This document shows, piece by piece, positions 10,701 to 64,000 of a stretch of 64,000 bases of DNA. This DNA comes from Dastarcus helophoroides (Eukaryota > Arthropoda > Insecta > Coleoptera > Bothrideridae). The notes under the pieces are model-generated. The model made no database searches. It was not told the origin of the DNA and saw only the letters and a program-made list of their open reading frames with translations. Made by a program: the position numbers and the translations under genes. Within the stretch, counting starts at the first letter, position 1. Every line of letters begins with the position of its first letter. The DNA lies in the NCBI GenBank assembly GCA_028583605.1, contig CM053337.1, positions 12,953,138 through 13,017,137 on the forward strand. The letters run 5' to 3'.

Positions 10701-12760
10701 ACGTCTTTATTTTAAATTTAGCCCACATAGTTTTCGAGTTATGTTTACAAATGTACAAAAAAAAATTTTAATGCGTAGAAATTTCTAAAATAATTTAGAC
10801 TAATAGATATTCATATGAATATTACATTACCAGAGTGTTCGATATGATTAATAAAATTTCTGAGGGGCTCGGGGACCGGGGACATGGTCAAGTGGGGTAT
10901 CATATGAAAGTGCATCATTTACACATTTCAAAACTTTTATTCTTTCAAATTTAATCAGCATAGTTTTTGAATTATGATAAAATGTGTAAACATGACAGCT
11001 TTTATTTTTAAAGTATACAAACCGAAAAATTTTAAATATTTTTTATTAATAGATACATATGTAAAAATCACATTTTCATGAGTAGGGGGTCGGAAATATG
11101 GGAACAAGATTTAAGGCGGACAGTGGGACGTGGTCAAGTGGGGTATCATATGAAAGTGCGTCGTTTAAATATTTCAGAGTTGTTTTTATTTTAATTTTAA
11201 CCTGAATACTTTTTGGATTATCATTAAAATTGTGTTTAAGTCCTTCTATTTTCCCAGTACGTAGAGCTAAAATTTAAAAAAAAATCAGGTTAATAAATAC
11301 TTAAATGAAAAGTAAATTTTCATTACCAGAGAATTTGAAATGGGGAGATTAAGATTTGGGGGGTTAGGGGGGACATGGTCAAGTGGGGTGTCATATGAAA
11401 GTGCGTTGATTGTACATTTTAAAAATGATTTTCTTTTAAATTTAGCCCTCATAGTTTTCGAGTTATGTTCACAAATGTACAAAAAAAAATTTAAATGCGT
11501 AGAATTTTCTAAAATAATTCAGACTAATAGACATTCATATGAATATTACATTTTCACTACCAGAGTATTCGATATGATTAATAAAATCCAAAGGGGGCTG
11601 GGGGGGGGGGCATGGTCAAGTGGGGTATCATACGAAAGTGCATCATTTACACATTTCAAAACTTTTATTCTTTTAAATTTAATCAGCATAGTTTTCGAAT
11701 TATGATAAAATGCGTAAAAATGACAGCTTTTATTTTCAAAGAATACAAATCGAAAAATGTTAAATATTTGTTATTAACAAATACATATGTAAAAATCACA
11801 TTTTCATTAGCACGGGGTCGGAAATATGGGATTAAGATTTAAGGGGAGCTGGGGGGACGTGGTCAAGTGGGGTATCATATGAAAGTGCGTCGTTTAAATA
11901 TTTCAAAACTGTTTTTATTTTAATTTTAACCTCAATAGTTTTTGGATTATAATTAAAATTGTGTTTAATTCCTTCTATTTTCACAGTACGTAGAGCTAAA
12001 ATTTTGAAAAAAATTCAGGTCAATAGATACTCATATTAAAAGCAAATTTTCGTTATCAAAGGATCTAAAATGGCAGATCAAAATTTGGGGGGCTAGGGAA
12101 GGGGCATGGTCAAGTGGGGTATCATATGAAAGAGCGTAATTCACTGCATTTCGAAACTGTTTTTGTTTTAATTTTAGCCAACTTGGTTTTTGAATTATTA
12201 TAAATTGTATAAAAATGACCCCTTTTATTTACAAAATGTGCATGTCGAAAAATTTTAAATAATTCACATTAAAAGATACGCTTGCGAAAATTACATTTTC
12301 ATTACCAGAGGGTCGAAAATGTTACATTAAAATTTAAGGGGGGCTAGGGGGGACATAGTCGAGTGGGGTATCATATGAAAGGGCGTCATTTACATATTTC
12401 AAAACTATTTTCCTTTTAATTTTAAGTCAACATAGTTTTTGAATTATGATAAAGAATGTTTAAAAATCTACTATTTCCCCTTCCACTTCGGAAATATATA
12501 AGCCGAAATATTTGGAACAGTTCACACTAAAGAATATTCATGTAAAAATTACTTTTCCATTGTTAGGGGGTCCGAAATGGAGAATGGAAATTTTAAGGGG
12601 GCCGGAGGGGGACATGGTCGAGTGAGGTATCATATGAACGTGCTTTGTATACGCGTTCTAAAATCATATTTCATTTATTTTTGGGCAACATAGCTTTTGG
12701 TTTATGATCAAAAATGTGGCAGCATATTTATCTCTATTTCTGAAGTGCGCTAGAAATCTG
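7790..12760 (+). repeat. ~250-bp satellite, block 2 (about 21 copies)
   Basis: Same family and orientation as block 1. TCAAGTG motifs fall about every 240-250 bp from about 7885 to 12618; one spacing is short (9587 to about 9700), a deletion. At least two monomer types are mixed: one with GTCGTTTAAATATTTCAAAACT after the ATCATATG motif, another with GTTGATTGTACATTTTAAAA and an 'AGCCCACATAGTTTTCGAG' segment. The last copies near 12.4-12.7 kb are the most diverged, as expected at an array edge. Confidence 0.95.
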
Positions 12761-13483
12761 AAATAAGCAGTTAACAATTAATAGTTATTCGCGTTAACAT
12801 AATGCGAATAATACAAGCAACCTAAAATTATCTGGTATTTATAGTGGCGTTTCTCCTTATTTGTTTACTTCTTTATCTTTGTGCTACTTGAATACAAAAT
12901 GTTAAATACCACGCAATATAATTTTATATTGTTTGAACTTGTATAACTCGTGATTAATTTTCTGAAAAGATTTAAAACTTTTACGACCGATTTTTATCTA
13001 AAAAAGAAATGCGCCGACACAAGATGTAAAATTTTATTAGTCACGTGATGATACTTCTCTGTATAGATTTAATCTGGGGAAATTCCTGGTTGCACATCGT
13101 TTCAATTTTGAAACATGAAAAAGCGATTAACGAATGGAGCTTTTTCCACAAAATCGGTCAATTCAAAAGAAATCAAAAATCAAATAAGTTGTTTTGTTAA
13201 AATTTTAATAAAACTGGGAAAACCATCTGAATAGTGTCAAGTATGCTTCAGACAAAAAATCGCAAGCGACGCTTCAGCCCAAAATAACTCTGTAGATATT
13301 GTTATGTTTTTAAACGATATGAACTTGAATACTGCATGAGAAAAATTGAGACTTACTGTATACTTATTGATCTGAATTGATACATTAATAAAAAATGTAA
13401 ATTGATTATTTCTAACCCTTACTTTGTGGAATTCTTCAATATTCATAACTGTTAAGCTTTATTAACGATTTTTCGTAACTAGT

Positions 13484-13671
13484 AAACTTAATTAAGGATA
13501 AAACCAATAACCGATATTAAAAATTCCACGATGTTTCGATAAATATTTGCTATGACCGGACCTGCTTTCCGCCGATGATGTTGAAAAGCGAAACCAGGTC
13601 CGGTCATAGCAAATATTTATCGAAACATCATGGAATTTTTAATGTCTGTTGTTTTATCGTTAATTAAGTTT
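13484..13671. mobile_element. Foldback (palindromic) element, family B
   Basis: Two nearly complementary arms of about 80 bp (13484-13564 and 13595-13671) meet around a spacer of about 30 bp. Key arm segments are GCAAATATTTATCGAAACAT and its complement, and AGGTCCGGTCATAGC. A diverged relative lies at 48559-48728. The form fits a non-autonomous foldback/MITE; no transposase is nearby. Confidence 0.75.
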
Positions 13672-13699
13672 GATAGTTGTAAAAAATGTCATGTTGAAG

Positions 13700-14324
13700 T
13701 CTATGTAGAATAGTTGCTAATGATGGGATAAAATGGCGCTTGACATTACCAATGGAGCGAAAATGGCGCACGAGTTTATTTGCCAGGAACGACGCAAAAA
13801 GCGGCTAACGCGTAAAATCGAAATTAAAAATTATTTTCCATGTTTGAGCACCTTAAGCGTTATTACGTATTGTCAGTTTTAACAATAGGATTTCGTGTGT
13901 TTGATTTCGTAATATTATAATGACCACATTGTTGGCTAATGTCGTAAAAGAGACTAGTCTGCATAGTTTGTATACAAATACGAGCACGTGACCGGCTCGT
14001 ATTCGGATTAACGCTAATTATGAGCGGTTTTTGGTTACTTTGGATGTGTCGACAGCGCTTATCTGTCTAATTTCTAATTGGGGGAGACGTTACCTAACGC
14101 GGGATTCTCTAAAATTCCATCACAATGTTTGTTAATGGGCGACATTTTTTTAGATCAAAGGGGGCCGTCTTTATTGTTTAAGATAAGGGGACAATTTTTA
14201 TCGACTTTGCAAGCCAATTAACTGCATGTACATGTATATAAATGTAATGTGTCGAAGTCGTTTGACACAGTGGAATCTTTTTAGGTCATTGCCAGCGCAA
14301 CCGAACGGGAATAGGGATAGAGAA
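13700..14324 (+). promoter_or_regulatory. Presumed 5' region of guanine deaminase
   Basis: About 600 bp of non-satellite DNA upstream of the first recognised coding exon. It contains two AAATGGCGC motifs (13731 and 13761, similar to YY1/Pho-type GCCAT sites) and an E-box CACGTG at 13985-13990 inside a CGAGC...GCTCG inverted repeat. Promoter assignment is by position only; no transcription start can be fixed from sequence. Confidence 0.3.
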
Positions 14325-14432
14325 ATGATCGAGGCGGGAATGATTATTATTATCGGGAATATCGCCCATTGCATAGCACCCTATGAGCTTTTTGTTATAA
14401 CCAATGGTTACGTCATCGTGGACGATGGTAAG
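14325..14432 (+). CDS. Gda: Guanine deaminase exon 1
   Basis: 36 codons ending ...TNGYVIVDDGK before the donor GTGAGT (phase 0). It carries the N-terminal beta strands typical of amidohydrolases (IIIIGNIAHC). Start uncertain between the ATGs at 14325 and 14340. Confidence 0.85.
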
Positions 14433-17400
14433 GTGAGTGATTTTTTTAAAATATTTAGTCGTCGTTAATCAAATTAATTAAAAATTTTTCGCGTTGTACC
14501 CGATTTTTTTTCTAAATGTGTATGTCGGTGACATCTTTTATTAATAGTTAATTTTTATTTCAATCATATTGTCTATTTTAGTTTATTTATCATAAAAAAA
14601 GTCTTTTTTATATTCTAATAAATTATTATAAATTTTGAGGACGCTCCTTTGTTAAATTAAAAATACTGCGATTAAAAAATATTTCCGTATTTATGTTTAT
14701 AATTAGCTCTGGTGATAAATATTATCTCTCTTTCTAATTGAAATACATTATATATTTATGATATACTATTCCATATAATCACGCACACAAAATGATTTGT
14801 TGCATCCGCTTTCTGTTAAGTACTTTGTTAAACTCCCACCGTTTAAAAAAAAGAGATGTTTATTTCGTCTTTTTGGATACTGAAAAATTCAAAATTCGGA
14901 AATCTTTCGCCAATTGCGTTCTAATGTCCAAAGTATGTGGGCCGAAAAATTGAAATAATTCACACTAATAGATAGTCATGTGAAGACTACATTTTCATTA
15001 CTGTAGGGTCCCAAATGTGAAATCAAGATTGAGGGGGGCTAGGGGGGCCATGGTCAAGTGGGGTATCATATGAAAGCATGTCGTTTACTTATTTCAAAAC
15101 TGTTTTTTTTTTAAATTTTATCCAACATAGTTTTTGGATTGTGATCAAAATTGTATAAATCCCTCCTTCTATTTCAAACGCATGCAGACCTAAAATTTAA
15201 AAAAAAATGAGATTAATAGGCTTAAAATTTTGGAAAAAATTCAGGTTCATGGATACCAATCTAAAATGTAAATTTTCATTACCAGAGGATTCGAAATAGG
15301 GGATCAATATTTAAGGGGGCTAGGGGGGGTATGGTCAAGTGGGGTGTCATATGAAAGTGCTTCGTTTATACATTGTAAAACTGTTTCTCTTTTAATTTTA
15401 GCCAGCGTAGTTTTTGAATTATGATCCAAATTGTGTAAATCCTTCCTTCTATTTCAAAAGTATGCAGATCTAAAATTTAAAAAAAAATCAGATTAATAGG
15501 CTTAAAATTTTGGAAAAAATCCAGGTTAGTGGATACCGACCTGAGACGTTAATTTTTATTAACAGAGGATTCGAAATAGGGGATCAATATTTAAGGGGGC
15601 TAGGGGGGGTATGGTCAAGTGGGGTGTCATATGAAAGTGCTTCGTTTATACATTGTAAAACTGCTTTTCTTTTAATTGTATCCAACATAGTTTTTGAATT
15701 ATGATCAAAATTGTGTAAATATATACAATTCCTTCTTCCGTTTCGGAAGTTTGTGGACTTAAAATTTTGAAAAAAATTCAGGTTAATAGATACCGATGGG
15801 AAAATTAAATTTTCATTACCAGGGGATTCGAAACGAGGGATCAGAGATTGAAGGGGGCTAGGGGGGCATGGTCAAGTGGGGTGTCATATGAAAGTATTTC
15901 GTTTATACATTGTAAAACTGTTTCTATTTTAATTTTAGCCAGCATAGTTTTTGGATTATGATCAAAAGTGTGTAAAGTCCTCCTGCTATTTCAAAAGTAT
16001 GCAGACCTAAAATTTACAAAAAAAAAATGAGATTAATAGGCTTAAAATTTTGGAAAAAATTCAGGTTCATGGATGCCGGTCTGAAATGTAAATTTTCATT
16101 ACCGGAGGATTCGAAATAGGGGACAATATTTAAGGGGGCTAGGGGGGGTATGGTCAAGTGGGGTGTCATATGAAAGTGCTTCGTTTATATATTGTAAAAC
16201 TGCTTTTCTTTTAATTGTATCCAACATAGTTTTTGAATTATGATCAAAATTGTGTAAATATATACAATTCCTATTTCTCTTTCGGAAGTTTGTGGACTTA
16301 AAATTTTGAAAAAAATTCAGGTTAATAGATACCGATGGGAAAATTAAATTTTCATTACCAGGGGATTCGAAACGAGGGATCGAGATTGAAGGGGGCTAGG
16401 GGGGCATGGTCAAGTGGGGTGTCATATGAAAGTGTTTGGTTTATACCTTGTAAAACTGTTTCTATTTTAATTTTAGCCAGCATAGTTTTTGGATTATGTT
16501 CAAAAGTGTGTAAAGTCCTTCTGCTATTTCAAAAGTATGCAGACCTAAAATTTACAAAAAAATGAGATTAATAGACTTAAAATTTTGGAAAAAATTCAGG
16601 TTCATGGATACCGGTCTGAAATGTAAATTTTCATTACCGGAGGATTCGAAATAGGGGATCAATATTTGAGGGGGCTAGGGGGGAATGGTCAAGTGGGGTG
16701 TCATGTGAAAGTGCTTCGTTTATACATTGTAAAACTGCTTTTCTTTTAATTGTATCCAACATAGTTTTTGAATTAGGATCAAAATTGTGTAAATATATAC
16801 AATTCCTCTTTCTGTTTCCAAAGTTTGTGGACCTAAATTTTTTTTAAAAATTCAAGTTAATAGATACCGATGTGAAAAGCAAATTTTTATTACCAAGAAA
16901 TTCGAAACAGAGGATAGAGATTTAAGGGGGCTGGGGGGGGGGGGGGCATCGCCAAGTGGGGTGTCATAGGAAAGTGCTTCGTTTATACATTGTAAAACTG
17001 TTTGTCTTTTAATTTTACCCAGCGTAGTTTTTGAATTATGATCAAAATTGTGTAAATGCTTCCTTCTATTTCAAAAGTATGCAGACCTAAAATTTAAAAA
17101 AATGAGATTAATAGGCTTAAAATTTTGAAAAAAATTCAGGTTAATGGATACCGATCTGAAATGTAAATGTTCATTACCAGAGGATTCGAAATAGGGGATC
17201 AATATTTAAGGGGGCTAGGGGGGGTATGGTCAAGTGGGGTATCATATGAAAGTGCTTCGTTTATACATTGTAAAACTGCTTTTCTTTTAATTTTATCCAA
17301 CATAGTTTTTAAATTATGATCAAAATTGTATAAATATATACAATTCGTTCTTCCGCTTCGGAAGTTTGTGGACTTAAAATTTTGAAAAAAATTCAGGTTA

Positions 17401-20400
17401 ATAGATACCGATGGGAAAATTAAATTTTCATTACCAGGGGATTCGAAACGAGGGATCGAGATTGAAGGGGGCTAGGGGGGCATGGTCAAGTGGGGTGTCA
17501 TATGAAAGTGTTTCGTTTATACATTATAAAACTGTTTCTATTTTAATTTTAGCCAGCATAGTTTTTGGATTATGATTAAAAATGTGTAAAGTCCTCCTGC
17601 TATTTCAAAAGTATGCAGACCTAAAATTTACAAAAAAAATGAGATTAATATGCTTAAAATTTTGGAAAAAATTCAGGTTCATGGATACCGGTCTGAAATG
17701 TAAATTTTCATTACCGGAGGATTCGAAATAGGGGATCAATATTTAAGGGGGCTACGGGGGAATGATCAAGTGGGGTGTCATGTGAAAGTGCTTCGTTTAT
17801 ACATTGTAAAACTGCTTTTCTTTTAATTTTATCCAACATAGTTTTTGAATTATGATCAAAATTGTGTAAATATATACAATTCCTTCTTCTGTTTCCAAAG
17901 TTTGTGAACTTAAAATTTTGAAAAAAATTCAGGGTAATAGATACCGATGGGAAAATTAAATTTTCATTACCAGGGGATTCGAAACGAGGGATCGAGATTG
18001 AAGGGGGCTAGGGGGGCATGGTCAAGTGGGGTGTCATATGAAAGTGTTTCGTTTATACATTGTAAAACATAGTTTTCGAATTGTGATCAAAATTGTGTAA
18101 ATATATACAATTCCTCCTTCTGTTTCCGAAGTTTGTGGACTTAAAATTTTGGAAAAAATTCAGGTTAATAGATATCGATGTGGAAAGTAAATTTTTATTA
18201 CCAAGAAATTCGAAACAGGGAGATCGAGATTTAAGGGGGCTAGGGGGGGCATGGTCAAGTGGGGTGTCATATGAAAGTGCTTCGTTTATACATTGTAAAA
18301 CTGTTTCTCTTTTTAATTTTAGCCAGCGTAGTTCTTGGATTATGATCAAAATTGTGTAAATTCTTCCTTCTATTTCAAAAGTATACAGTACTAAAGTTTA
18401 AAAAAAATGAGATTAATAGGCTTCAAATTTTGAAAAAAATTCAGGTTAATGGTTACCGATCTAAATTGTAAATTTTCATTACCAGAGGACTCGTAATAGG
18501 GGATGAATATTTAAGGGGGCTAGGGGGGATATGGTCAAGTGGGGTGTCATATGAAAGTGCTTCGTTTATACATTATAAAACTGCTTTTCTTTTAATTTTA
18601 TCCAACATAGTTTTTAAATTATGGTCAAAATTGTGTAAATATATACAATTCGTTCTGTTTCCAAAGTTTGTGGATTTAAAATTTAAAAAAAAATCAGGTT
18701 AATAGATACCGATAGTGAGAAGTAAATTTTTATTACCAAGAAATTCGAAACGGGGGATCGAGATTTAAGGGGGCTAGGGGGGGCATGGTCAAGTGGGGTG
18801 TCATATGAAAGTGTTTCGATTATACATTGCAAAACTGTTTCTCTTTTAATTTTAGCCAGCATAGTTTTTGGATTATGATTAAAATTGTGTTTAATTCCTT
18901 CTACTTTCAAAATACGTAGAGCTAAAATTTTGAAAAAAATTCAGATTAATAGATACGCATATTACAAATAAATTTTCGTTATCAGAGGATCCAAAATGGG
19001 AGAGCATAATTTGGGGGGCCAGTGGGGGGCATGATCAAGTGGGGTATCATATGAAAGTGCGTCGTTTAAATATTCCAAAACGGGTTCTCTTTCAATTTTA
19101 GTCAACATAGTTTTCGGTTTATGGTAGAAAATATTAGACATAGACGACATTTTTTTCTTTTGAGAACATATTTTGATACACGATATTTTAAATTGCCAGA
19201 AAATTCAGAAATCGTTCGTCACTTAATAAACAAGCATTTCGTGTTCAAAACATTTTCTAGAACTGAGCGATGACTTTGTTGTAGCACGAATTAACAATAA
19301 ATTGTTAATCCATGACAGCTTTTCTAAGATAAAATTATTTATATTTACTGACTCATTTGTTTAGAATTTTTTTGAATTCTGTTTACATTTACTTAAAACG
19401 TTTTACGTCGAAAACAATGGAACATAAATATTCTGCGAGACAGCTTGGATCAAACCCTTACGTATCTTATGTCTGTCTAACAATTATGCGCGCAGTCAGA
19501 ATTAAGTGATAATGTTGTGTGTATTATTTTGGTGTAACATTTTTTTTAAATGCATCTTTCATAGTTTTTTGGTCCATCGATAGATTAGTAACCAGTTCAA
19601 TTGACGATGTCACGTCGGATAGTCGGATCTTATAACAATGAAACTATTTATTCTTCATTATATACATAATGAAGAATAAATAGTTAAAAATAAGAATAAG
19701 TAGTTAAAAATAATGAATTGAAATACTTCAATTCATTATTTTTAACTACTTCTTCCTCCATTATTGTTCCCTTTGTTTGGTATTGCATTGCTAACTAACT
19801 TAAATGAGAGCCAAATATCGAAATCCAATGCTACAACTTTTTTTTAAAATTTTTTCTACAGTTTTTATATTCCATACAAATCTTGTCCCCTGAAACCAAG
19901 AAAGATTTATATTACATAATTTAAGAAAATTTCATGCCTAATTTTGGTCTTTTATATTTCATTTTTTTCCCTATTCTGTGTAAAATAGACTAACCTATTT
20001 TTGTCAGCTGTTGTTATCCGGACGTTTTAAGAATTTAGATATTACGTAGTCATATTTCAAAAAATATTTCAGTTTATTTTCAACTTTCATTACTAAAAAT
20101 TTAAATATTTCGAAACTGGGTCTCAGAAATATTAAATAAAATTAACAAATATAATAAAACTATTTATTAAGAATCTTCTTAGTTTATGCTTTAATTGAAA
20201 ATATTCAGTCATCAATCAACAGGTTTTGTATTGGACATACGTCAACAGTGAAGAAACGTCGACCAACTACGACGCAGATTTAACCCAGAAACGAATTCGA
20301 CCAGCCAAACCCCTTTCAAGTTCAGTAAATAAACCAGTTGATTACAGCAATGAAATTAATTGTTCTTAGCAATAAAGCTATTGTTTATATTATTAAACGA

Positions 20401-23400: not shown

Positions 23401-26400
23401 GGTAAAATGGACTGGTCCTTGGTTATCTTCAAAAATCGAAATAGAAATCTTGTCCTCTGTCAGGGGGCAAGATTTGTATTTCAATTTTTAAAGAAGTTGT
23501 CACTATTACGCTACTTCAGGTAGCATTTTTCCAGAACTATTTCGTATTGTCTTTATAAATGCGTACGAAACTTTTTTAATAACCGATTTGCTTTCAGAGC
23601 GATTTGGTAAAACCAGTGATCACCCCTCGTTTCGCGTTAAGCGTGGATCAGGATCTGATGAAGACTCTGGGAGAGATCGCAGCCGAATACGATCTCCACA
23701 TACAGGTTTTTGCCGCGATTTGTTTTAACAGTCAACTTTAACGTGTAATTTTAGACTCATATATCTGAGAACAAGGAAGAAGTGAAATTCGTTCACGAAT
23801 TGTACAACCAATCGTACGCCGGTGTCTACGACGAGGCGAATTTATTAACCAAGAAGGTTAAATACTTGGAAGTTTCGCTTCTTCTTTATCTGATTTTTCG
23901 GTTTTAGACTGTATTAGCGCACGGCGTCTATCTTACTGAAGAAGAACTTCGACTTATAGCCGACAGAGGCGCCTCAATCTCTCATTGTCCCGAATCGAAC
24001 AACAATCTAAGATCGGGCATGTGCGACGTCGCCAAATTAATCAATCATGGTATTTCGGTGGGTTTGGGGACGGATGTCGCTGGGGGCGCCTCGCCCTCCG
24101 TTATCAACGCCATGAGGTCGACAATCGCTACCTCCATCAATCTGTCGTTTTCGAAAACTTCCTACACGGCGCTCACATGGAAAGAGGCGTTTCATTTGGC
24201 CACTTTGGGGGGCGCCAAAGGTAAACGATGCTCTCGCCCGAAACTGTTGATTGGGAAATAGAACGGGAAGTTTCAAAAAAATAACGGGTTTTGACAAAAA
24301 TTTCGAAATTTCAAGGGAAAAATTTAGATTTCTAAAATAAATTCTGAAACAAATTCGAAATTTGAAAACAAATTCGAAATTTGGAAACAAATACAAAATT
24401 TGGAAACAAAAATCGAAATGTGAGATAAAAGTCAAATTTTCCAGCCAAAGGTTAAAAAGCAGTAAAAATTTCTGGAAATTTAGGTTTTAAAAGGTCCAAA
24501 TTTTTAGGTTCAATTAGAAGAAAAATAACGAAATTTTGAAAAAAAGCGAAATTTGAAGAAGAATTTCTAGAAAAAAGTTGAATCTTGCGAAGAACAATAT
24601 GTTAAAAAATAGATCGAAATTCGTCCTTTTTGATTTGGAGAAAAATATCCTCTTTTTCTCGGAATTTCGAAAAAAAGACGCATTTCGAAGAAAAGTTCAT
24701 AATTTCCAGAAAACACTTACTTGCGTATGTACTTACTTACTTACCTACCTACCTACCTACCTATCTAGCTACCTATCTAGCTACCTATCTACCTACCTAT
24801 CTACCTACCTATCTACCTACCTATCTACCTACCTATCTACCTACCTATCTACCTACCTATCTACCTACCTATCTACCTACCTATCTACCTACCTACCTAC
24901 CTACCTACCTACCTATCTACCTACCTATCTACCTACCTATCTACCTACCTATCTACCTACCTATCTACCTACCTATCTTCCTATCTACCTAACTATCTAC
25001 CTACCTATCTACCTACCTACCTATCTACCTACCTATCTATCTACCTACCTATCTATCTACCTATCTACCTACCTATCTACCTACCTATCTACCTACCTAT
25101 CTACCTACCTATCTACCTACCTACCTATCTACCTACCTATCTATCTACCTATCTACCTACCTATCTATCTACCTATCTACCTACCTATCTATCTACCTAT
25201 CTACCTACCTATCTACCTACCTATCTACCTACCTATCTACCTATCTACCTACCTACCTATCTACCTACCTATCTACCTACCTATCTATTTACCTATCTAC
25301 CTACCTATCTACCTACCTATCTACCTACCTATCTACCTACCTACCTACCTATTTACCTATCTATCTACCTATCTATCTACCTACCTATCTACCTACCTAT
25401 CTACCTACCTATCTACCTACCTATCTACCTATCTACCTACCTACCTATCTACCTACCTATCTATCTACCTATCTATCTACCTATCTACCTACCTATCTAC
25501 CTACCTACCTATCTACCTACCTATCTATCTACCTATCTATCTACCTATCTACCTACCTATCTACCTACCTACCTATCTACCTACCTATCTACCTACCTAT
25601 CTACCTACCTATCTACCTACCTACCTACCTATTTACCTATCTATCTACCTATCTATCTACCTACTATCTACCTACCTATCTACCTACCTATCTACCTACC
25701 TACCTATCTACCTACCTATCTACCTACCTATCTACCTACCTACCTATCTACCTATCTACCTACCTATCTACCTACCTACCTATCTACCTACCTATCTACC
25801 TACCTATCTACCTATCTACCTACCTACCTATCTACCTATCTATCTACCTGTCTATCTACCTACCTACCTATCTACCTTCCTATCTACCTACCTACCTATC
25901 TACCTACCTATCTACCTACCTATCTACCTACCTATCTATCTACCTATCTGTCTACCTGTCTGTCTGTCTTTCTATCTATCTATCTACCTACCTATCTACC
26001 TACCTATCTACCTACCTATCTATTTACCTATCTATCTACCTACCTATCTATTTACCTATCTACCTACCTAACTATCTATCTACCTATCTGTCTACCTGTC
26101 TGTCTTTCTATCTATCTATCTACCTACCTATCTACCTACCTATCTACCTACCTATCTACCTACCTATCTACCTACCTATCTACCTACCTATCTACCTACC
26201 TATCTACCTACCTACCTATCTATCTACCTATCTAATTCCTACCTATCTACCTACCTATCTACCTACCTATCTACCTACCTACCTACCTATCTACCTACCT
26301 ATCTACCTACCTACCTATCTACCTATCTACCTACCTATCTACCTATCTACCTATCTACCTACCTATCTACCTACCTATCTACCTACGTACCTATCTACCT

Positions 26401-27615
26401 ACCTATCTACCTACCTACCTACCTATCTACCTACCTATCTACCTACCTACCTATCTACCTACCTATCTACCTACCTATCTACCTATCTACCTACCTACCT
26501 ATCTACCTATCTATCTACCTGACTATCTACCTACCTATCTACCTACCTATCTACCTACCTACCTGTCTATCTACCTATCTACCTACCTACCTATCTACCT
26601 ACCTATCTACCTACCTACCTATCTACCTACCTATCTATCTAACTATCTGTCTACCTGTCTGTCTGCCTTTCTATCTATCTATCTACCTACCTATCTACCT
26701 ACCTATCTACCTACCTATCTATTTACCTATCTACCTACCTATCTACCTACCTATACCTATCTACCTACCTACCTATACCTATCTACCTACCTACCTATCT
26801 ATCTACCTATCTGTCTACCTGTCTGTCTGTCTTTCTATCTATCTATCTACCTACCTGTCTACCTACCTATCTACCTACCTATCTACCTACCTATCTACCC
26901 ACCTATCTACCTACCTATCTATTTACCTATCTACCTACCTATCTACCTACCTATCTACCTACCTACCTATCTACCTACCTATCTACCTACCTACCTATCT
27001 ACCTACCTACCTACCTATCTACCTACCTATCTACCTACCTATCTACCGACTTACCTTCCTACCTACTTACCTACCTACCTACCTTACTACTTACCTACCT
27101 TAGGTAGGCTACCTACCTACTTACCTACCTACCTACCTACCTACCTACTTATCTACCTATCTACTTATCTACCTATCTACTTACCTACCTACCTACCTTC
27201 CTACCTACTTACCTACCTACTTACTTACCTACTTATTTACCTACCTACTTACTTACCTATTTACCTACCTACTTACCTACCTACTTACTTACCTACTTGC
27301 TTACCTACTTACTTACTTACATTGAATTACATTACATTACATTACAACATTACATTACGTTACAACACATTACATCACATCACATTACTTCAAATTGAAA
27401 AAAATTTTGTTTCAGCTTTGGCCATGGACGATAAGATCGGGAATTTTGAAGTTGGTAAGGAGTTTGACGCTCTAATCATAGATGTCGATGTGGACGATTC
27501 TGCGGCGGATTTGCTTTTACCAACTGATCCGTTGGAAAATTTGCAAAAGTTTATTTATTTGGGGGATAACCGGAACGTGTTGCGCGTTTACGTTGCCGGC
27601 AGACGCGTAAAATAA
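14325..27615 (+). CDS. Gda: Guanine deaminase (whole gene, 7 coding exons)
   Basis: Hydrolyses guanine to xanthine and ammonia, a cytosolic purine-catabolism step. Coding exons: 14325-14432, 21918-22181, 22239-22457, 23598-23705, 23755-23856, 23908-24220 and 27416-27615; all junctions are GT-AG and keep frame, giving 437 aa (human about 454). Zinc ligands of the amidohydrolase fold are all present: PGLIDTHIH (H78, H80), THISE (H235), LAHG (H272) and GTDVAGG (D323). The C-terminal motif EVGKEFDALIID is typical of the family. The start is the first ATG at 14325; an in-frame ATG at 14340 is also possible, and the frame is open upstream to 14226. Introns 1 (7.5 kb) and 6 (3.2 kb) are filled with repeats, the others are short. 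No broken exon was seen, so the gene looks functional. Confidence 0.95.
14925..19150 (+). repeat. ~250-280-bp satellite, block 3 (about 16 copies), in Gda intron 1
   Basis: Same satellite and orientation as blocks 1 and 2, but with a distinct subfamily showing higher-order structure. Monomers with GAAATAGGGGATCAATATTT and a GTATGGTC variant alternate with monomers with GAAACGAGGGATCGAGATTG and GCATGGTC, clearest from 16156 to 18788, giving a dimer period of roughly 530-540 bp. The last unit (about 19037) returns to the block 2 type. Confidence 0.93.
19642..19685. repeat. Perfect hairpin 1 (20-bp arms, 4-nt spacer)
   Basis: Arms 19642-19661 and 19666-19685 are exact reverse complements, separated by ATAC. 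Lies in Gda intron 1 just after the satellite block. Confidence 0.95.
19698..19751. repeat. Perfect hairpin 2 (25-bp arms, 4-nt spacer)
   Basis: Arms 19698-19722 and 19727-19751 are exact reverse complements, again separated by ATAC. Twelve bases separate it from hairpin 1. Confidence 0.95.
20649..20905. repeat. ~130-bp tandem duplication
   Basis: Two copies about 130 bp apart share TTACAATC-AAAGTGACTA, ACGAAAGGGTT and GGTATGTACTTTGAACTTTA, with about 10-15% differences by eye. Intronic. The preceding 20.2-20.65 kb is unusually G+C-rich for the region but has no recognisable gene. Confidence 0.85.
21325..21581. repeat. ~129-bp tandem duplication
   Basis: Two near-identical copies starting CGAGTAGTTTGATGTATAC at 21325 and 21454, ending before exon 2 of guanine deaminase. 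Confidence 0.9.
21918..22181 (+). CDS. Gda: Guanine deaminase exon 2
   Basis: 88 codons from ILAIGKEDKL to FNAVV. Contains the first metal-binding signature PGLIDTHIHAPQY (H78 and H80 of the assembled protein). Acceptor TTTTAG, donor GTGAGT, both phase 0. Confidence 0.95.
22239..22457 (+). CDS. Gda: Guanine deaminase exon 3
   Basis: 73 codons, RKTISHGTTTACYF to ADVLKRK, matching the family segment NGTTTACYF. The preceding intron (22182-22238) is 57 nt, a multiple of three, and has no in-frame stop, so exons 2 and 3 read as one open frame. Donor GTAACT. Confidence 0.95.
22680..22815. mobile_element. Foldback family A, partial copy
   Basis: Carries the family A consensus ACTGGTCCTTGGTTATCTTC, then TTGAAATACAAATC, CCTGAAACCAAGAAGGATTA and ACGCGTTTCGATAG, ending in a small hairpin (GTTTCGATAG / CTATCGAAAC). 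In Gda intron 3; a tail-only fragment lies at about 22510-22545. Confidence 0.8.
23407..23493. mobile_element. Foldback family A, short internal-deletion palindrome
   Basis: Keeps only the outer ~45 bp of each arm (GGACTGGTCC...AAATCTTGTCC against GGGGCAAGATTTGTATTTCA), joined back to back. In Gda intron 3 close to exon 4. Confidence 0.75.
23598..23705 (+). CDS. Gda: Guanine deaminase exon 4
   Basis: 36 codons, SDLVKPVITPRFALS to DLHIQ, covering the family motif KPIVTPRF. Acceptor TTTCAG, donor GTTTTT; phase 0 on both sides. Confidence 0.95.
23755..23856 (+). CDS. Gda: Guanine deaminase exon 5
   Basis: 34 codons beginning THISENKEEV; the histidine (H235) is a metal ligand. Intron 4 is 49 nt, intron 5 is 51 nt. 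Donor GTTAAA is non-consensus, but frame and homology fix it. Confidence 0.93.
23908..24220 (+). CDS. Gda: Guanine deaminase exon 6
   Basis: Encodes TVLAHGVYLT... through SHCPESN and GLGTDVAGG to ATLGGAK; H272 and D323 complete the catalytic zinc site. Ends in phase 1 before GTAAAC. Confidence 0.96.
24221..24720. other. Guanine deaminase intron 6, A-rich part
   Basis: AT-rich intron with many GAAATTT and GAAAAA motifs, without defined tandem structure, leading into the tetranucleotide array. Confidence 0.7.
24721..27320. repeat. 2.6-kb CTAC/CTAT tetranucleotide array
   Basis: Almost uninterrupted CTAC and CTAT units (often CTACCTAT or CTACCTACCTAT), with CTGT-rich interruptions (about 25945, 26090, 26650, 26815) followed by the same longer pattern, a hint of higher-order duplication. 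The last 300 bp shifts to CTTAC/CTAC. It gives a long Tyr-Leu-Pro-Thr/Ser frame that is not a gene. Sits in Gda intron 6. Confidence 0.97.
27416..27615 (+). CDS. Gda: Guanine deaminase exon 7 (last)
   Basis: Starts after TTTCAG in phase 1 (completing Ala), reads LAMDDKIGNFEVGKEFDA... to VYVAGRRVK and stop TAA. Matches the C-terminal part of the family (EIGNFEVGKEFDA, FLYLGDDRNI). Confidence 0.96.
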
Positions 27616-29959: not shown

Positions 29960-31035
29960 AGCCTTAGGACGTCTATCACAAGAGAATGCAATTGATTTAA
30001 TATGAATCAAAGGACATTCTGGGAAAGAGGGAAACGAACGCGCTAACAAACTGGTGAGGAAGGGTTAGGAGGGACGATTCGTTGGACCAGAACCTTCCCC
30101 TGGCGAGATCAACTGTAAGATCCCTACTTAACGAAGACATTTATCGTCAACACAAAGCCATATGGGCATCAATAACAACATGCCGACAATCGCTGTTTGC
30201 GGCAATCTAAAACAGATTGCCATTCCTTAATAGAAGGTACTGAAATTTAGGATTGTGAAAGGAGTGACCGGCGAAGAAAAAGCCAATAAAACTGCATACA
30301 AACATGAATACTTCGCAAATAAATTACAGAGAATATGCCGACAAACTCACGCATTCATTAGAATGCCGTGCAGAGAAAGGGCAAAACTATGCCTACAACT
30401 CTCAAGGAATAATCTCAGGAAACTTGTGTAGGGATTTGGACAGGTCACTGTCGGTTAAACAAACACCTCCACCGAATGGGAATTATAAACGACCAAAGTT
30501 GTAGAGGGTGTTTAGAAGAAGATGAAGAGTGTCGAGCACGTGATGTGTCACTGCCCGGTACTAGCATCAATCGGAGGATCCACGCTGGGGGACTTCTGGC
30601 CTAGTGTGGGCAGTTTGAGAGAGGCGCATCCAAGGAACGTATTTCAGTTTCTCAACAAGGTTGGGTGCAAGTAGAATGCAACCTAGACTACAAATTCATG
30701 CAGCCCTCCAGGCGTAGGTAGCTGAACTACTAACAGTTGAAACACTGCTACCTAGCGAAGAGGTTGCTCTCTAGGAAAAAGTTCCCAGAAGACAAGGATT
30801 CTAATGCACAGACCAATAGGTTTGAACTTTTACTAGATTCGAAGTTTGGAAACCAAATACCGGTTTCGATCTTGTTAGATGTCGTCAGTTTGGAATATCC
30901 AACTCGAATGCTAATAAATGTTGGGTGGCTGAATGAATGGCCAAGGACACCTCAATCACGGGGATAGCACAATGGGCCCGGAAAAGGTGGCCTAAGTGCT
31001 GGCCTAAAATTAAGGCAACCATAACGAATCCAGAA
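29960..31035 (+). mobile_element. Non-LTR retrotransposon relic: RNase H end and 3' tail
   Basis: Degenerate coding with stops and frame changes. Recognisable parts are IKGHSGKEGNERANKLVRKG (the RNase H C-terminal signature GHSGxxGNExAD) near 29997-30056, a W-x-CRQS segment near 30160-30195, and a Cys/His cluster CRGC...H.. near 30500-30560, typical of the end of ORF2 in R1/I/Jockey-like elements. A family C fragment interrupts it at about 30205-30330. From 30640 on it is 3' tail; parts of the same tail recur at about 48745-48895. Non-functional. Confidence 0.75.
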
Positions 31036-31039
31036 TCCA

Positions 31040-32052: not shown

Positions 32053-32170
32053 TTTCTATTCATGTTTTATTGGCTTTTTCCTCGTTAGTTACTTCTTTCA
32101 CAATTTTAAATTTCAGTAATTGTGAAAGGAGTAACTGACCAAGAAAAAGCCAATAAAAAATGAATAGAAA
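32053..32170. mobile_element. Foldback family C (short palindrome)
   Basis: Arms of about 53 bp read TTTCTATTCATGTTTTATTG...TTTCACAATT and its complement AATTGTGAAAGGAGTAACTG...GAATAGAAA, separated by about 12 bp. A larger copy is at 49490-49760 and a fragment at 30205-30330. Confidence 0.8.
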
Positions 32171-32594
32171 TATTAATACTTCGCAAAGAAAATACAGAGA
32201 ACATTTGTTTTTCTTGTCGCGTATTGAATCAAATCCATTAATCTGTTACTGTTACTATCTTTGATACTTATTAAGTATATGGTTGATTTAATCAAAGCCA
32301 TGAATTCCAAAAACATAACCTGCAAACTAGTGTTACCAACTCTGTCCTAGTGTAAAACTGTATGAGAGCTAGCAAAAAGCTGTCGAAAGCTGTAAAAATT
32401 TAAAACAAAAACCATAAATCTGCAGTTTTGGTTTAAATCAGTGTTGCGCCTTTTCTAACTCGGAAAATTAAGTCGAAAACTAGAACAAATTAGATTTTTC
32501 CAGATTAAAAAGCCAAAGCATTTTAAATTTCTATTATTTGGATTGTAATGCATTAAAAAAAGATTAACCACATCGACTCTATTAAAACTATAAA

Positions 32595-40939: not shown

Positions 40940-42400
40940 TCAGAACAATCAACATCGAGATTCTCAAAAATCTGGAGGAAAATAGAATCATATCCGACAG
41001 GCAATACGGTTTTAGACTTTGATGGAACGGACTAGTTCTTGGTTATCTTCAAAAATTGAAACACAGAACTTGTCCCCTGAAACCAAGAAAAATTAAAAAA
41101 CACAACAAAGGTTGCTCTAACGCGTTTCGACAGCCAAGCTGTCATCCTCAGAGAGAAACGGTTTTAGACAACAACGTTCCACTGGCGACCTACTGGCATA
41201 TGTTACTCATATATGTAACTCAGTTATGGAAAAACATGGTGAGGCTAGGATTGTGGCATTGGATATCTCAAAGGCTTTCTACAGACAGTCTGGCATCGAT
41301 CTCTTCTCGCCTAATTAACATCTAATGGTCTCCCTCCTGGACTCTGTCATTTGATATCCAACTTTCTCGCTGACAGATCTCTTCAGGTCGTCATCAATGG
41401 CATCTCATCCGAGACATTTGCGCGGGGGTGCCTCAGGGGTCTGTTCTGTCTCCTACTCTATTTCTGTTGCACATAAACGATCTCTTGGCTTCAACTTCCA
41501 ATCCTATATACAGCTACGCAGATGATAGTAGCCTTGTGTCATCTTTTTTCTCCGACAAACCATTATCTATCGCTGCTTCAGATCGTCTACGGGAGCAGCA
41601 AATGCAGATCATTAATCGGGATCTCGAGATTATTCTGGAATGGGGTAAATACAAGTTGGTCGACTTCAACGCTTCAAAAACTCAGACGCCGCGGTTTTCT
41701 CTAAGAAAACATCGAGGGATAATGCAACAAACATACCAATGGACGGTAAAATCCTTCCGATGGGATCTAATCTATTTATCCTAGGAGTGAATGCGAGCAC
41801 TAACTTCTCTTGGGACGATCATGTGCGCGCCATTGCCAAATCCGCCTCTCAGAAGCTGGGCTTTCTTTTTAGAGGTAAAAAGTACATCACATTTCATCAG
41901 CTAGTAACACTATACAAAGCTTAAGTTGGGCCAACACTAGCCAATACTGTTCTCATGTTTGGCCATGTTCAGCCCCAAAGCACACTTTAGCTCTCTTTGA
42001 TTCAATTCAAAGAAGAGCGATTCACCTAATTGATGACGAGAGTCTGACCAATTCTCTCGAAACACTAGAGCACAGGCGTATGACTTGTATCTTTTCTACA
42101 AGTACTATCATGGAAGATGCTCGCAGGAACTAATAGGATTGATCGCCCCCCAAGGGCCAGATTCTTGAGGCGTACTAGACAGTCGGAAACAGCAAATTGC
42201 TGTGCAGTCCAGCTTGACACAGTGTCTGCGGAGACTCTTTTTTCTATAGAACTTCCAAGTTATGGAACTTGTTAAAGAAAGGAATTTTTCCCAAAAATTA
42301 AGAAGGCAGTTCATCGCCATCTATCCTTGTTTCCGCATCCTACTCGCAGTACTTTGAAAGCATAATTTGCGAATGGATTAAACTTAAAAAAAGAAAAATA
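40940..42400 (+). mobile_element. Non-LTR retrotransposon relic with reverse transcriptase (Jockey/CR1-like)
   Basis: 5'-truncated ORF2 fragment with frameshifts and stops. Readable in order: LEENRIISDRQYGFR (thumb-side motif preceding the QxGFR signature), QQRSTGDLLAYVTHI, VALDISKAF (RT motif A), GxPQGSVLSPTLF (motif B), SYADDS (YxDD-like catalytic motif C, near 41510-41530), a WGKYKLVDFNASKTQ segment, LGVNAS..W..H, and a tail IQRRAIHLIDDESL with arginine-rich C-terminus to about 42360. It is interrupted by a family A insertion at 41018-41157. Not functional. Confidence 0.85.
41018..41157. mobile_element. Foldback family A half-element inserted in the RT gene, 12-bp target duplication
   Basis: 140 bp starting TTTGATGGAACGGACTAG and ending CAGAGAGAA, flanked by ACGGTTTTAGAC at 41006-41017 and 41158-41169. 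The RT frame on the left (...RQYGFR) continues exactly on the right (QQRSTGD) after one duplicate, so this is a clean insertion. It contains one arm and the small hairpin CAGCCAAGCTG, not the full palindrome. Confidence 0.88.
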
Positions 42401-47270: not shown

Positions 47271-50200
47271 GTAAGCAACCTAACCTTATTCTCTCTTAAT
47301 GTGTCAAAATTCTTAGTTTTTTTAATAACATGGTTTGTTGCGATTCCTTGAAAATTCCATTCGTCAGCATGGAAGACGATAATTATCTTTATCCCGCAGA
47401 CCATTTGGCTGTTGAAATGTAGGTCGCTCTTTCAGTGGTGGTGCTTTAATTCAAGTTGTCTTTGTAGTGTATCGGATGCAGCTCGCCGCCCCAGTTCCTA
47501 TACCGATTATGTGCGATACAGTGCCGTCGAATTTACCAAGTTATTTGGGCAGGGACTACCACGGGGATATCAGCCATTTGGAGGCAGCTAAACTGCTGGA
47601 ATCGCAACCCGATGGGGCATATCTCGTCAGGAATAGTAAATCCGCTGACGGACAGTTTCACACTTTGAGCTTAAAGTAAGTTGCTCTCGAGTCTGGGATC
47701 TGGTGTGTCAATCTGTATCCTTTTGTAGCTTGTGTTGTTTGATAATTTAATTGTAAACGAACTGTGAATTGTTTTGTTAGCTGCGAATTGTTTTCCGAGC
47801 TGTGAATTGTTTTACGAGTTGTAAATTGTATTACGAGCTATCGGAAGGTTATGGGGTGAAAGAAAATCACGTATTGCCGTTCTATACTTTTAATTAAATC
47901 AAGCCCCTTTTACTTGAACGAATGCAGAACAACTAACTAACGATTCTCCTCTTCTGGGTGTTTTTCATTTATGTAACTTGGAACCTATGGTAATAAAATT
48001 TTGTTTATATAAAAGTCGCCGTTCAATAACAGCCTGATTAAGCTTTCTTGCACGTGAATAAACATTGAGATAAACGAATATAGTTTTTGCTTATTACCAA
48101 CACGAGCTGTACAAGATATGGATTGAATAACTGATTTTGTTTAATCTGTGAATATAGAAAGTGATGGCACCTAGTTTCTTTACATGTTGATACTATAAAT
48201 AATCAAATGGCAAATAGGAGCCTCAATTATATTTCTTCTTCTGTGAATTGTGTTGCGAGCTGTGACTTGTTTTCTGAACTGCGAATCGTTTTGCGTGTGT
48301 TTTCATTGTTACGAAATGTTACAAAGTTGTGTATTCTTATAAATATTGCTAATAATGCAACGAATTAAAATACAACAGAAACTATGACACAAAACTCATT
48401 ACTTTGGGATCCTTTTTAACACAGAATAGCTATCATTTTACCTTTTTTTTTTTGGGCTATTGCCTGACGTCCAAAAAATCTATTTAGTTGACTTTGTTCA
48501 TAATCAAATTTTTCTTTATGAGGGAAGTATTAATCAAAAAGATGTTTTCTTAACTATTAAACTTTATTAACGATAAAAACGCAACAAAATTTAAAAATTC
48601 CACAAGGTTTTGATCAATATTTGCTAACACCGGATCAGGTTTCGCATTACTACATCATCGGCGGTCATATTTATCAAAATCTTGTGGAAATTTAAAATTT
48701 AGTTGCGATTTTATCATTAATAAAGTTTAATACTTATAAATATTAAAGAATATCCAAGGGACGTACTTCAGTTTCTCAACAAGGTTTGGTTGGACCAAGG
48801 ACACCTCAGTCACGAGGGTAGCACAATGGGCCCGGAAAGGGTGGCCTAAGTGCTGACCTAAACTTTAGGCAACCCACAACGAATCCAGAATATTAAAGAA
48901 TTCCACGAAGTAAGGGTTGGAAATGTTAATTAAAAAGATGTCTATTAGGAAAAGAATTTCGTCGATAATAGGATTTGATGCAGAATTAATTGTATTTTGC
49001 TACTCGTTGGGTCCAACACTAAAGTCGTTTTGTTTTAGATTTAATGACAAAATACATCACTTCAAGTTGTATTACGATCCAAGTTCCGGATTGTACGTGA
49101 GAGAGAAAAAATATGACTGTGTTCGATCGTTGGTGGCCGACGGCTTGGTCACAATGTATTTAGAATTGAAGGCGCCGACGGTGCTGCAACGTTTGGCGAC
49201 GGCTAATTACCAAGAGAGCCCCTACATGACACTGAACAAGCGGAAATTGCGAGCGCTGGCAAAGGAGAACGTAAGGTAGCTCTTTCGTCGATTTCATTCT
49301 GTAGTTGTCGTACTCATTCCTGAGTTGTCGACTTCATTCCTGAGTTGTCGATTTCATTCCCGAGTTGTCGATTTCATTGCAGAGTTATCGATTTCATTCC
49401 CGAGTTGTCGATTTCATTGCAGAGTTATCGATTTCATGCCCAAGTTGCTGATTTCGATATTCTCTGTATTTTCTTTGGGAAGTATTAATATTTCTGTTCA
49501 TGTTTTATTGGTTTTTTCTTCGCCGCAGTTATTCCTTTCACAATTCTAAATTTCAGTAACCTTCTGTTAAGGATTGGCAATCCATAATAGATCGCCAATC
49601 CTTAACAGAAGAAATTTAGAATTCTGAAAAGAGTAAATTTCTTCTGTTAAGGATTGGCGATCTGTTATGGATTGCCAATCCTTAACAGAAGGTTACTGAA
49701 ATTTAGAATTGTGAAAGGAGTAACTGGCGAAGAAAAAGCCAATAAAACATGAATAGAAATGTTGCCAATTCTTAACAGAAAGTCACTGAAATTTAGAATT
49801 TTGAAAGGAGTAACTGGCGAAGAAAAAGCCAATAAAACATAAATAGAAATTGTCGATTTCATTACCGAGTTATATTCATTGAATGGTTGCAGGAACGCCA
49901 ATCCAAACGAGAAAAATTTGCTGCAAATCATCCCCTTATCCAAGCAGATTATAGGACCGAATTTTCCAGATAAAATCGAGAAGCCTCACGCCTTTAAACT
50001 GACCACGTTCAAAGGTTTGAATTGGTGCGAGCTTTGTGGGAATTTCCTTTGGGGATTCAGTCTTCAAGGGAGGAGGTGCGACGACTGTGGCATTATCGCT
50101 CATGGTGGGTAGCCGTTTGATAAACTTGTTCACTTGACAGTTGACTCGTTAATGCCGGCCGTTTCCATTTGAGGATGAACAAAAATGCAAACTTATGTAC

Positions 50201-62674: not shown

Positions 62675-63000
62675 TCAAGCAATACTGCTTGCATTTGATG
62701 CGATTCTGGGCCAAAGATCGGCGCATTCCTTAGCTACGGGTCCCGTAATGGCTGATCCTTTCATTTCGCCTTTGTTGTTCACAATGACCCCAGCATTGTC
62801 CTCGAAATATATGAAAACGCCGTCCTTCCTGCGGAAAGGCTTCCTCTGCCTGATCACCACCGCAGGCATAACCTTCTTACGAAGTTCTGGTTTACCCTTC
62901 TTGACTGTAGCGACAATCATGTCACCTGATCCGGCAGCTGGCAGACGGTTGAGGCGACCGCCAATTCCTTGGACGGCGATCACATACAGATTTTTGGCCC
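62675..63000 (-). CDS. RpL23: Ribosomal protein L23 (uL14), last exon, partial
   Basis: 107 codons after two bases completing Gly: [20 protein letters not shown]..., [73 protein letters not shown], ending NASSIA and TGA. This is the 60S subunit protein uL14 at the intersubunit interface; it matches the fly protein almost residue for residue, and the usual length is 140 aa. The acceptor reads TTTTGTTTTAG on the minus strand. The N-terminal ~32 residues must lie on exons to the right of 64000; none was seen in 63001-64000. Convergent with the chimaerin gene. Confidence 0.97.
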
Positions 63001-63401
63001 CTAAAACAAAAAAATTGAAAGATTGAAAAAATGAAAGATAAAATACCTAGGGGACTATAAAACAAAAAGCATATTCCACGATTAAAGTCAAAATTTCAAC
63101 ATTCTTCTCATACTATCTATTTTTTAGAGATTACAAGTTGAAAGAAGAAATTTTGAGATTAAACCTGAATGAATTAGGCTTATGAACAGTTTTGGAACCC
63201 TATTTGGATAATAATTTTAAAAATTTATATATATATAGAACTTCGAAACAAATAAACCCAATTCATTAACTTGTACGAGTCCACAAGCTCAAAAAAGAAG
63301 AATAATTAAAGTCGAAAAGCCAAAATTTTAATTTCACACACCCAATGGAGGTTTGCTCTCTTGGATACTTATATGACAGACTAACGGCTTTAAATTGGAA
63401 G
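63001..63401. other. RpL23 intron, AT-rich
   Basis: No exon of RpL23 seen on the minus strand. About 63330-63400 may be part of the element that carries the ribozyme. Confidence 0.5.
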
Positions 63402-63474
63402 TGTATACAACCACTGTACCATGCTGATGAGGCCAAGGAAGGCCGAAACTAGTCTATGGTTGCGGTTGTACATA
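63402..63474 (+). ncRNA. Type I hammerhead ribozyme with minimal palindromic stem III
   Basis: All core elements are present in order: CTGATGA (63424-63430), stem II GGCC/GGCC with AAGGAA loop (63431-63444), GAAA (63445-63448), and cleavage triplet GTC (63452-63454, predicted cut after C63454). Stem I pairs ACCATG (63418-63423) with TATGGT (63455-63460, one G-U), then an internal loop (5 and 3 nt), then a perfect 7-bp TACAACC-type helix (63406-63412 with 63464-63470). Stem III is just AC/GT; ACTAGT (63448-63453) is self-complementary, which favours cleavage as a dimer. This form is known from Penelope-like retroelements. It lies antisense in the RpL23 intron. No coding part of a host element is visible. 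Confidence 0.9.
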
Positions 63475-63674
63475 TTTTCGATTTTAAGCACGTTTAACTG
63501 TTTAATTACAGAACATTTAATTGGTCATTTGTCAACACCAAATTCTTATTTTAATGTGGAAGCTCTTTCAAAAAAAGTACTAGCTTAGGAATTTTTTTAA
63601 ACAATGGGTTCACCTCTGTTAAACTTTAACCCTTAAGGCTCGATAACAATTTTTATACTATATACCAGATAACA

Positions 63675-64000
63675 AAATGTCTCTTTAGCGAAGCCTTTCG
63701 ATTTTTATAACACTAATACGTCCCTTCAGCGGAGCATTTCGATTTTTATAACACTAATACATGTCCCTTCAGCGAAGCATTTCCATTTTTATAACACTAA
63801 TACATGTCCCTTCAGCAAAGCATTTCGATTTTTATAACAGTAATACATGTCCCTTCAGCGGAGCATTTCGATTTTTATAACACTAATACATGTCCCTTCA
63901 GCGAAGCATTTCGATTTTTTTAACACTAATACATGTCCCTTCAGCGAAGCCTTTCGATTTTTATAACATGTCCCTCAGCGGAGCCTTTTAATTTTTATAG
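63675..64000. repeat. 43-bp tandem array running off the window edge
   Basis: About seven to eight units of TCCCTTCAGCGAAGCATTTC plus GATTTTTATAACACTAATAC and ATG, with GCGGAGC/GCGAAGC variants. In the RpL23 intron. Confidence 0.93.

Follow-up and report, generated by a model that had tools for sequence, protein, structure and literature searches.

The window analysed here, a stretch of 64,000 nucleotides from the beetle Dastarcus helophoroides, encodes RpL23, pieces of a guanine deaminase and an IQ-motif protein. RpL23 is strongly conserved (99% in a wasp and 98% in a cricket, among the best 120 of 5045 matches). For the guanine deaminase fragment, the named matches ranking above the first damselfly are beetles, with 37-64% identity among the best 120 listed from 7991 candidates scored, and the IQ-motif frame has 1 match. 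No tRNA gene was found in the window using the bacterial code. Many arrays of a satellite of about 230-280 bp (GGGGGGCATGGTCAAGTGGGG...) fill positions 2791-19123, and very long simple arrays, TC-rich and TACC-like, occupy 128-2100 and 24730-27320, the second of them between guanine deaminase coding pieces. A reverse transcriptase fragment (RVT_1, E 7.9e-10) is found at 41374-41781.

The last exon of RpL23 (uL14) lies on the minus strand near the end of the window, and beyond its splice acceptor, on the plus strand, lies a hammerhead motif that we denote hammerhead 1 (Table 1). A preliminary description of this DNA had placed the motif antisense to RpL23 and within an intron of that gene. The antisense position is confirmed by the opposite strands of exon and motif. 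We retain the wording "in the RpL23 intron" on account of the AG acceptor; an upstream RpL23 exon was not found within the window using one degenerate pattern. Because the RpL23 pre-mRNA is the complementary strand, hammerhead 1 cannot cut it. Downstream of hammerhead 1, from 63677 to 63999 and thus reaching the window end, a 43-bp unit is repeated in tandem, in 6.8 copies and one shorter variant; this array holds no hammerhead.

Hammerhead 1 has an intact core and a palindromic stem III

Direct reading of the sequence bore out the preliminary description of a complete hammerhead in full structural detail: the conserved core blocks, the stem II of 4 bp, the inner stem I of 6 bp followed by an outer helix of 7 bp, the minimal palindromic stem III, and the type I topology, with stem I running outward to both ends of the hairpin. 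An internal loop (ACTGT/TGC) separates the inner and outer helices of stem I and, past an A.C mismatch, 13 more pairs follow, giving 20 further pairs (7 + 13) beyond the inner part. Stem I is thus open to the flanks, and stem III, which has no room for a loop within a single molecule, can be closed only as a palindrome between two molecules. The 93-nt hairpin is predicted to fold at -34.6 kcal/mol (z -5.06), with none of 200 shuffled sequences as stable; the strand opposite the hairpin is also well folded (z -4.20). Judged by its sequence, hammerhead 1 is a type I hammerhead motif with an intact core, whose activity is a prediction.

The surroundings are less distinctive. A 253-nt region around hammerhead 1 folds weakly better than shuffled sequences, 10 of 200 of which equal it (z -1.69), and no clear target-site duplication was found around it; three AT-rich 8-nt repeats were present, and a near match of 6/8 at the foot of the hairpin was the best candidate.

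Table 1. Positions of the two hammerheads and associated features within the window
Feature	Position	Strand	Basis or remark
RpL23 (uL14) last exon, antisense to hammerhead 1	62675-63000	-	splice acceptor AG at 63001-63002
Hammerhead 1, entire hairpin with extended outer stem I	63392-63484	+	fold prediction
Hammerhead 1, catalytic part (inner stem I to inner stem I)	63418-63460	+	direct reading
Hammerhead 1, bipartite stem I, outer helix and internal loop	63406-63470	+	direct reading
Hammerhead 1, outer stem I TACAACC/GGTTGTA (7 pairs)	63406-63412 / 63464-63470	+	
Hammerhead 1, inner stem I ACCATG/TATGGT	63418-63423 / 63455-63460	+	core-side pair is G.U
Hammerhead 1, core CTGATGA	63424-63430	+	direct reading
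Hammerhead 1, stem II GGCC/GGCC, loop AAGGAA	63431-63434 / 63441-63444	+	direct reading
Hammerhead 1, GAAA	63445-63448	+	
Hammerhead 1, CTAG	63449-63452, then U63453, C63454	+	
Hammerhead 1, stem III palindrome ACTAGT	63448-63453	+	
Hammerhead 1, expected cleavage site	after C63454	+	predicted
Decayed LINE 3' part holding the unit (RNase H-like piece, C-terminal frame)	30000-31037, limits approximate	+	
Target-site duplication GTTGGGTG, left copy	30660-30667	.	
252-bp inserted unit, hammerhead 2 near its 5' end (hammerhead sense)	30668-30919	-	
Target-site duplication GTTGGGTG, right copy	30920-30927	.	
Hammerhead 2, entire hairpin	30830-30918	-	fold z -3.38, 0/200 shuffles as stable
Hammerhead 2, catalytic part	30852-30894	-	
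Hammerhead 2, core CTGACGA	30888-30882	-	
Hammerhead 2, GAAA	30867-30864	-	then CCGG, U, A30858
Hammerhead 2, palindrome ACCGGT	30864-30859	-	
Hammerhead 2, expected cleavage site	after A30858	-	predicted
LINE copy without the unit (imperfect empty site)	48752-48891	+	

A second hammerhead lies in a 252-bp unit inserted into a LINE

A second motif, hammerhead 2, lies on the minus strand more than 30 kb away. Its surroundings match another stretch of the window, the LINE copy at 48.8 kb, except for the middle, which is a 252-bp unit bordered by the 8-bp sequence GTTGGGTG on both sides. When the unit and one GTTGGGTG are left out, the LINE frame reads on to ...FLNKVGWLNEWPRTPQSRG and a stop, and the copy at 48.8 kb ends in a matching PRTPQSRG and stop; this copy has some ten bases fewer at the site, which makes it an imperfect empty site. 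Repeats of 8 nt are not rare as such (3 around hammerhead 2), and we accepted GTTGGGTG as the duplication on two grounds: it lies directly at the point where LINE similarity breaks off, and the frame is restored once the unit is removed. The 8-bp duplication and the unit-free LINE copy point to the arrival of hammerhead 2 by insertion of the 252-bp unit into the end of an old LINE frame.

The sequence hosting the unit looks like a decayed LINE end because of an RNase H-like piece upstream of the unit, which at 18.2 bits (E 0.003) does not reach the cut-off of 25.8. Both copies of the LINE tail (30941-31000 and 48795-48840) encode the peptide PRTPQSRG; across it they differ at three bases, all apparently synonymous, which hints at past selection on the LINE frame.

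The unit itself has a GC content of 41%. Read on the minus strand it begins with the hammerhead hairpin, followed by about 160 nt, and its RNA is predicted to fold better than shuffled sequences (z -3.85, 0 of 200).

The two hammerheads share an architecture

The core CUGANGA ... GAAA ... UH is exact in both hammerheads. Stem I is bipartite in hammerhead 2 as well, with an inner helix CCAAA/TTTGG, and both stems carry internal loops where a putative contact with loop II is expected (5+3 nt in hammerhead 1, 4+2 nt in hammerhead 2). Stem II differs: the G-C pair adjoining the core is present in hammerhead 1, whereas stem II of hammerhead 2 (CATC/GATC) has a C.C mismatch there and 3 pairs beyond, and would for this mismatch be expected to be weakly active or inactive. 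Of 13 pairs compared between the two, 4 differ at both bases, among them a pair of the palindrome. When the two are aligned, 92.3% of the cells pair, against 22.7-41.7% when the alignment is slid; the pair counts were reached by 37 of 500 shuffles, which is weak with two sequences. By this reading of its sequence, hammerhead 2 is a diverged second hammerhead of the same architecture as hammerhead 1.

Outside the core we detected no similarity between the two loci, their flanks included. The 252-bp unit scored 26 against the hammerhead 1 locus (shuffles: mean 24.8, maximum 45), and the parts downstream of the two hammerheads scored 19 against each other (shuffles: mean 20.7, maximum 39). Neither hammerhead is repeated next to itself in the window, and a covariance model built from both found no third hammerhead there: with filters off and E-values up to 10 it returned 18 rows, in which its own pair scored 59.5 and 55.3 bits and the next 10.4.

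Simulations set the hammerheads apart from random sequence

The preliminary description had named a covariance search with Rfam hammerhead models as a check. Nothing in the 64-kb window matched at the curated cut-offs; below them, Hammerhead_HH9 (RF02275) was the top-scoring family for both hammerheads, with 28 bits for hammerhead 1 (E 1.2e-4 in a 1-kb search, 0.0077 in the 64-kb search) and 23.8 bits for hammerhead 2 (E 0.18, at 30906-30835 on the minus strand), neither reaching the curated cut-off of 52 bits. The HH9 E-value alone is not decisive, because miRNA families match repeats of the window at sub-threshold scores with better E-values, down to 2.7e-9 in the 64-kb search. We take these miRNA matches, at 32058-32165 and at 38.8, 49.6 and 60.9 kb, as spurious; the first and the 49.6-kb ones sit in two-orientation repeats. 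A repeat with the core GTGAAAGGAGTAACTGGCGAAGAAAAAGCCAATAAAA occurs at 32058-32204 and 49457-49838 in both orientations and with fold-backs, yielding such sub-threshold matches.

Simulated windows, which preserve neighbour frequencies and not repeats, are stronger evidence than this E-value. A strict scan for the core, 5 bp of stem I, 4 bp of stem II and closing stem III pairs found 1 match in the window, while 3500 order-1 Markov windows yielded 3. With one stem II mismatch allowed, the window gave 2 matches and 6000 simulated windows together gave 18; stem III was palindromic in both of the former and in 5 of the latter. This corresponds to an expectation of 0.003 per window and a chance of about 5 in a million for two matches, in a count that required neither the extended stem I nor the palindromes. 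A laxer scan gave 2 in the window against 238 in 400 simulated windows, and only 1 of these 238 had an exact core and 5 stem I pairs.

Origin of hammerhead 1

The likeliest reading, to which we give a probability of roughly 0.6, is that hammerhead 1 is what remains of a short, non-coding element of retrozyme-like type, a single copy of which inserted next to RpL23 in antisense orientation. The preliminary description had seen in it the remnant of a retroelement, and this part of its proposal gains indirect support, through the finding of hammerhead 2 in an insert with a target-site duplication. By analogy with the hammerhead 2 unit, hammerhead 1 may also be an insertion. Taken together, the evidence suggests that both hammerheads are leftovers of small mobile elements of known kind, and hammerhead 1 is probably an old, solitary insertion of such an element near RpL23, carrying a dimer-type hammerhead of known kind.

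A more specific proposal, which we put forward tentatively and do not favour, is that the two hammerheads belong to one dispersed family of insect retroelements of about 250 bp, with single units, 8-bp duplications, the hammerhead in a long 5' hairpin, and a stem III kept only as a changing palindrome. If so, an element RNA would be cleaved only on meeting a second one, and processing would rise with the level of the element's own RNA; the palindrome types CTAG and CCGG would not pair with each other.

The preliminary description had linked the motif to Penelope-like elements (PLEs), and hammerhead 1 could on that basis be a truncated piece of a PLE pseudo-LTR, whose dimers, formed across tandem pseudo-LTRs, would have cleaved the transcripts of the element. 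PLEs do carry type I hammerheads with a minimal helix III that may act as dimers, and many of these are dispersed in non-coding DNA (PMC7761336, in excerpt); the palindromic minimal stem III of hammerhead 1 fits this. We nevertheless consider such an origin unlikely. Scanning 8 of the 38 long frames revealed no GIY-YIG domain, though a coding part could lie outside the window. The hammerhead 1 region has no second copy in the window, so there are no tandem pseudo-LTRs there; its bipartite stem I with internal loop exceeds the minimal PLE form; and hammerhead 2 sits in a 252-bp unit with no coding room.

Animal hammerheads were first found in satellite DNA, and the window is full of tandem arrays, so that both hammerheads might be single satellite units moved by DNA-level exchange with no RNA step. 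The arrays listed for the window cover neither hammerhead, however, and the 8-bp duplication together with the LINE copy lacking the unit indicates insertion, which makes this origin improbable. We regard as still harder to sustain the idea that hammerhead 1 has been kept by the host as a small intronic RNA, self-cleaving and antisense to RpL23, in the manner of the vertebrate intronic RECK and C10orf118 hammerheads. Its core is perfect, its hairpin stable, and its best Rfam model, HH9, is a family named for such an intronic case, presumably the C10orf118 hammerhead. Being antisense to RpL23, though, it has no action on that pre-mRNA, and the presence of hammerhead 2 in a mobile insert offers a simpler origin. 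The C10 and RECK hammerheads are described in PMC3088659 (in excerpt). A chance resemblance, which the lack of any family at a curated Rfam cut-off and the better E-values of miRNA families on the window's repeats might invite, is scarcely credible when the matched scan finds two real matches where 0.003 were expected, before the extended stem I or the palindromes are counted.

A possible mode of cleavage

The plus-strand RNA of hammerhead 1 would fold into the long stem I hairpin plus stem II. Its stem III (A-U and C-G, loopless) would be too short to hold within one molecule, and for this reason we propose that a double hammerhead forms when two RNAs, or two units within a multimer, pair through their ACUAGU sequences. 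Each RNA would then be cut at the predicted site, leaving a 2',3'-cyclic phosphate and a 5'-OH. If the retrozyme model applies (PMC7229834 and PMC7761336, both in excerpt), the monomers would be circularised and then copied to DNA by the reverse transcriptase of another element.

For both hammerheads, whether modelled as monomer or as dimer, the fold predicted to be best differs from the active one. In the hammerhead 1 monomer, part of the core is paired with stem III in this fold, which beats the open-core fold by 2.7 kcal/mol; the dimer narrows the gap to 1.0 kcal/mol over two molecules (0.5 per molecule). For hammerhead 2 the gap is 3.5 kcal/mol in the monomer and 1.8 in the dimer (0.9 per molecule). 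Because the predicted cost of an open core falls on dimerisation, the modelling leans towards cleavage as a double hammerhead.

Significance and search for relatives

A literature search, not exhaustive, found no report of a hammerhead in RpL23 or in a beetle. With hammerheads 1 and 2, a beetle probably joins the hosts of dimer-type hammerheads. They also provide one case where an inserted hammerhead unit, its duplication and a unit-free LINE copy can be compared directly. The excerpted sources treat the spread of such units as unsettled, and no new mechanism is needed here.

In viral contigs, the core plus ACTAGT had 0 matches. A looser pattern returned 46 stretches, 4 of which pass a stem test. 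These four IMG/VR stretches (L010:2029, L015, L020 and L041) all carry one hammerhead-like motif, CTGATGAGGCC...GGCCGAAACACGT, in which stems I and II have 4 pairs each; its stem III, CACG, is not palindromic. Prokaryote genomes gave 0 pattern matches, which is uninformative for an insect element.

Comparison with known hammerheads

Published systems are compared here as described in excerpts of the cited papers. The Rfam family HH9 has the core and the bipartite stem I seen in both hammerheads, but its stem III has 3 pairs and a 5-nt loop, and the scores of 28 and 23.8 bits stand against a cut-off of 52. PLE hammerheads are likewise of type I, with a minimal helix III and proposed dimer action (PMC7761336, PMC11167929); they are reported to be minimal variants without helix III or loop-loop contacts (PMC7761336) and lie in pseudo-LTRs, a context not seen here.

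Among insects, the hammerhead of the pDo500 satellite of Dolichopoda cave crickets also has a proposed extended stem I, but its stem III folds within one molecule and it resides in tandem satellite DNA (PMC2837043). The Aedes aegypti hammerheads resemble ours in their palindromic stem/loop III and proposed dimer (PMC3088659); by description, their dimer stem III has 10 bp against 6 here, and Aedes hammerhead RNA, when tested, gave no cleavage (PMC3088659, from a source that includes the legend of Fig. S8). The newt and axolotl hammerheads share with ours a very weak helix III with a palindromic tetraloop (CTAG and CCGG here) and an expected dimer action, and for them cleavage as a double hammerhead has been reported (PMC7229834). 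Compared by description, the present ones differ in their insect host, their sequence, their long outer stem I and the lack of an array.

Animal non-LTR retrozymes have units of 150-450 bp, a GC content below 50% and, when present, duplications of more than 4 bp (PMC7229834). The present elements resemble them in the type I hammerhead and, judged from the 252-bp unit of hammerhead 2, in the short non-coding unit, the GC content below 50%, the duplication longer than 4 bp and a strongly self-paired RNA. Most invertebrate retrozyme hammerheads reportedly have a stable helix III and cut as monomers, and the retrozymes usually occur as tandem copies, dimers or more (PMC7229834, PMC7761336). In contrast, neither hammerhead described here looks capable of this, and their units are single rather than tandem. 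Because the tandem arrangement is absent, we call these elements retrozyme-like rather than retrozymes.
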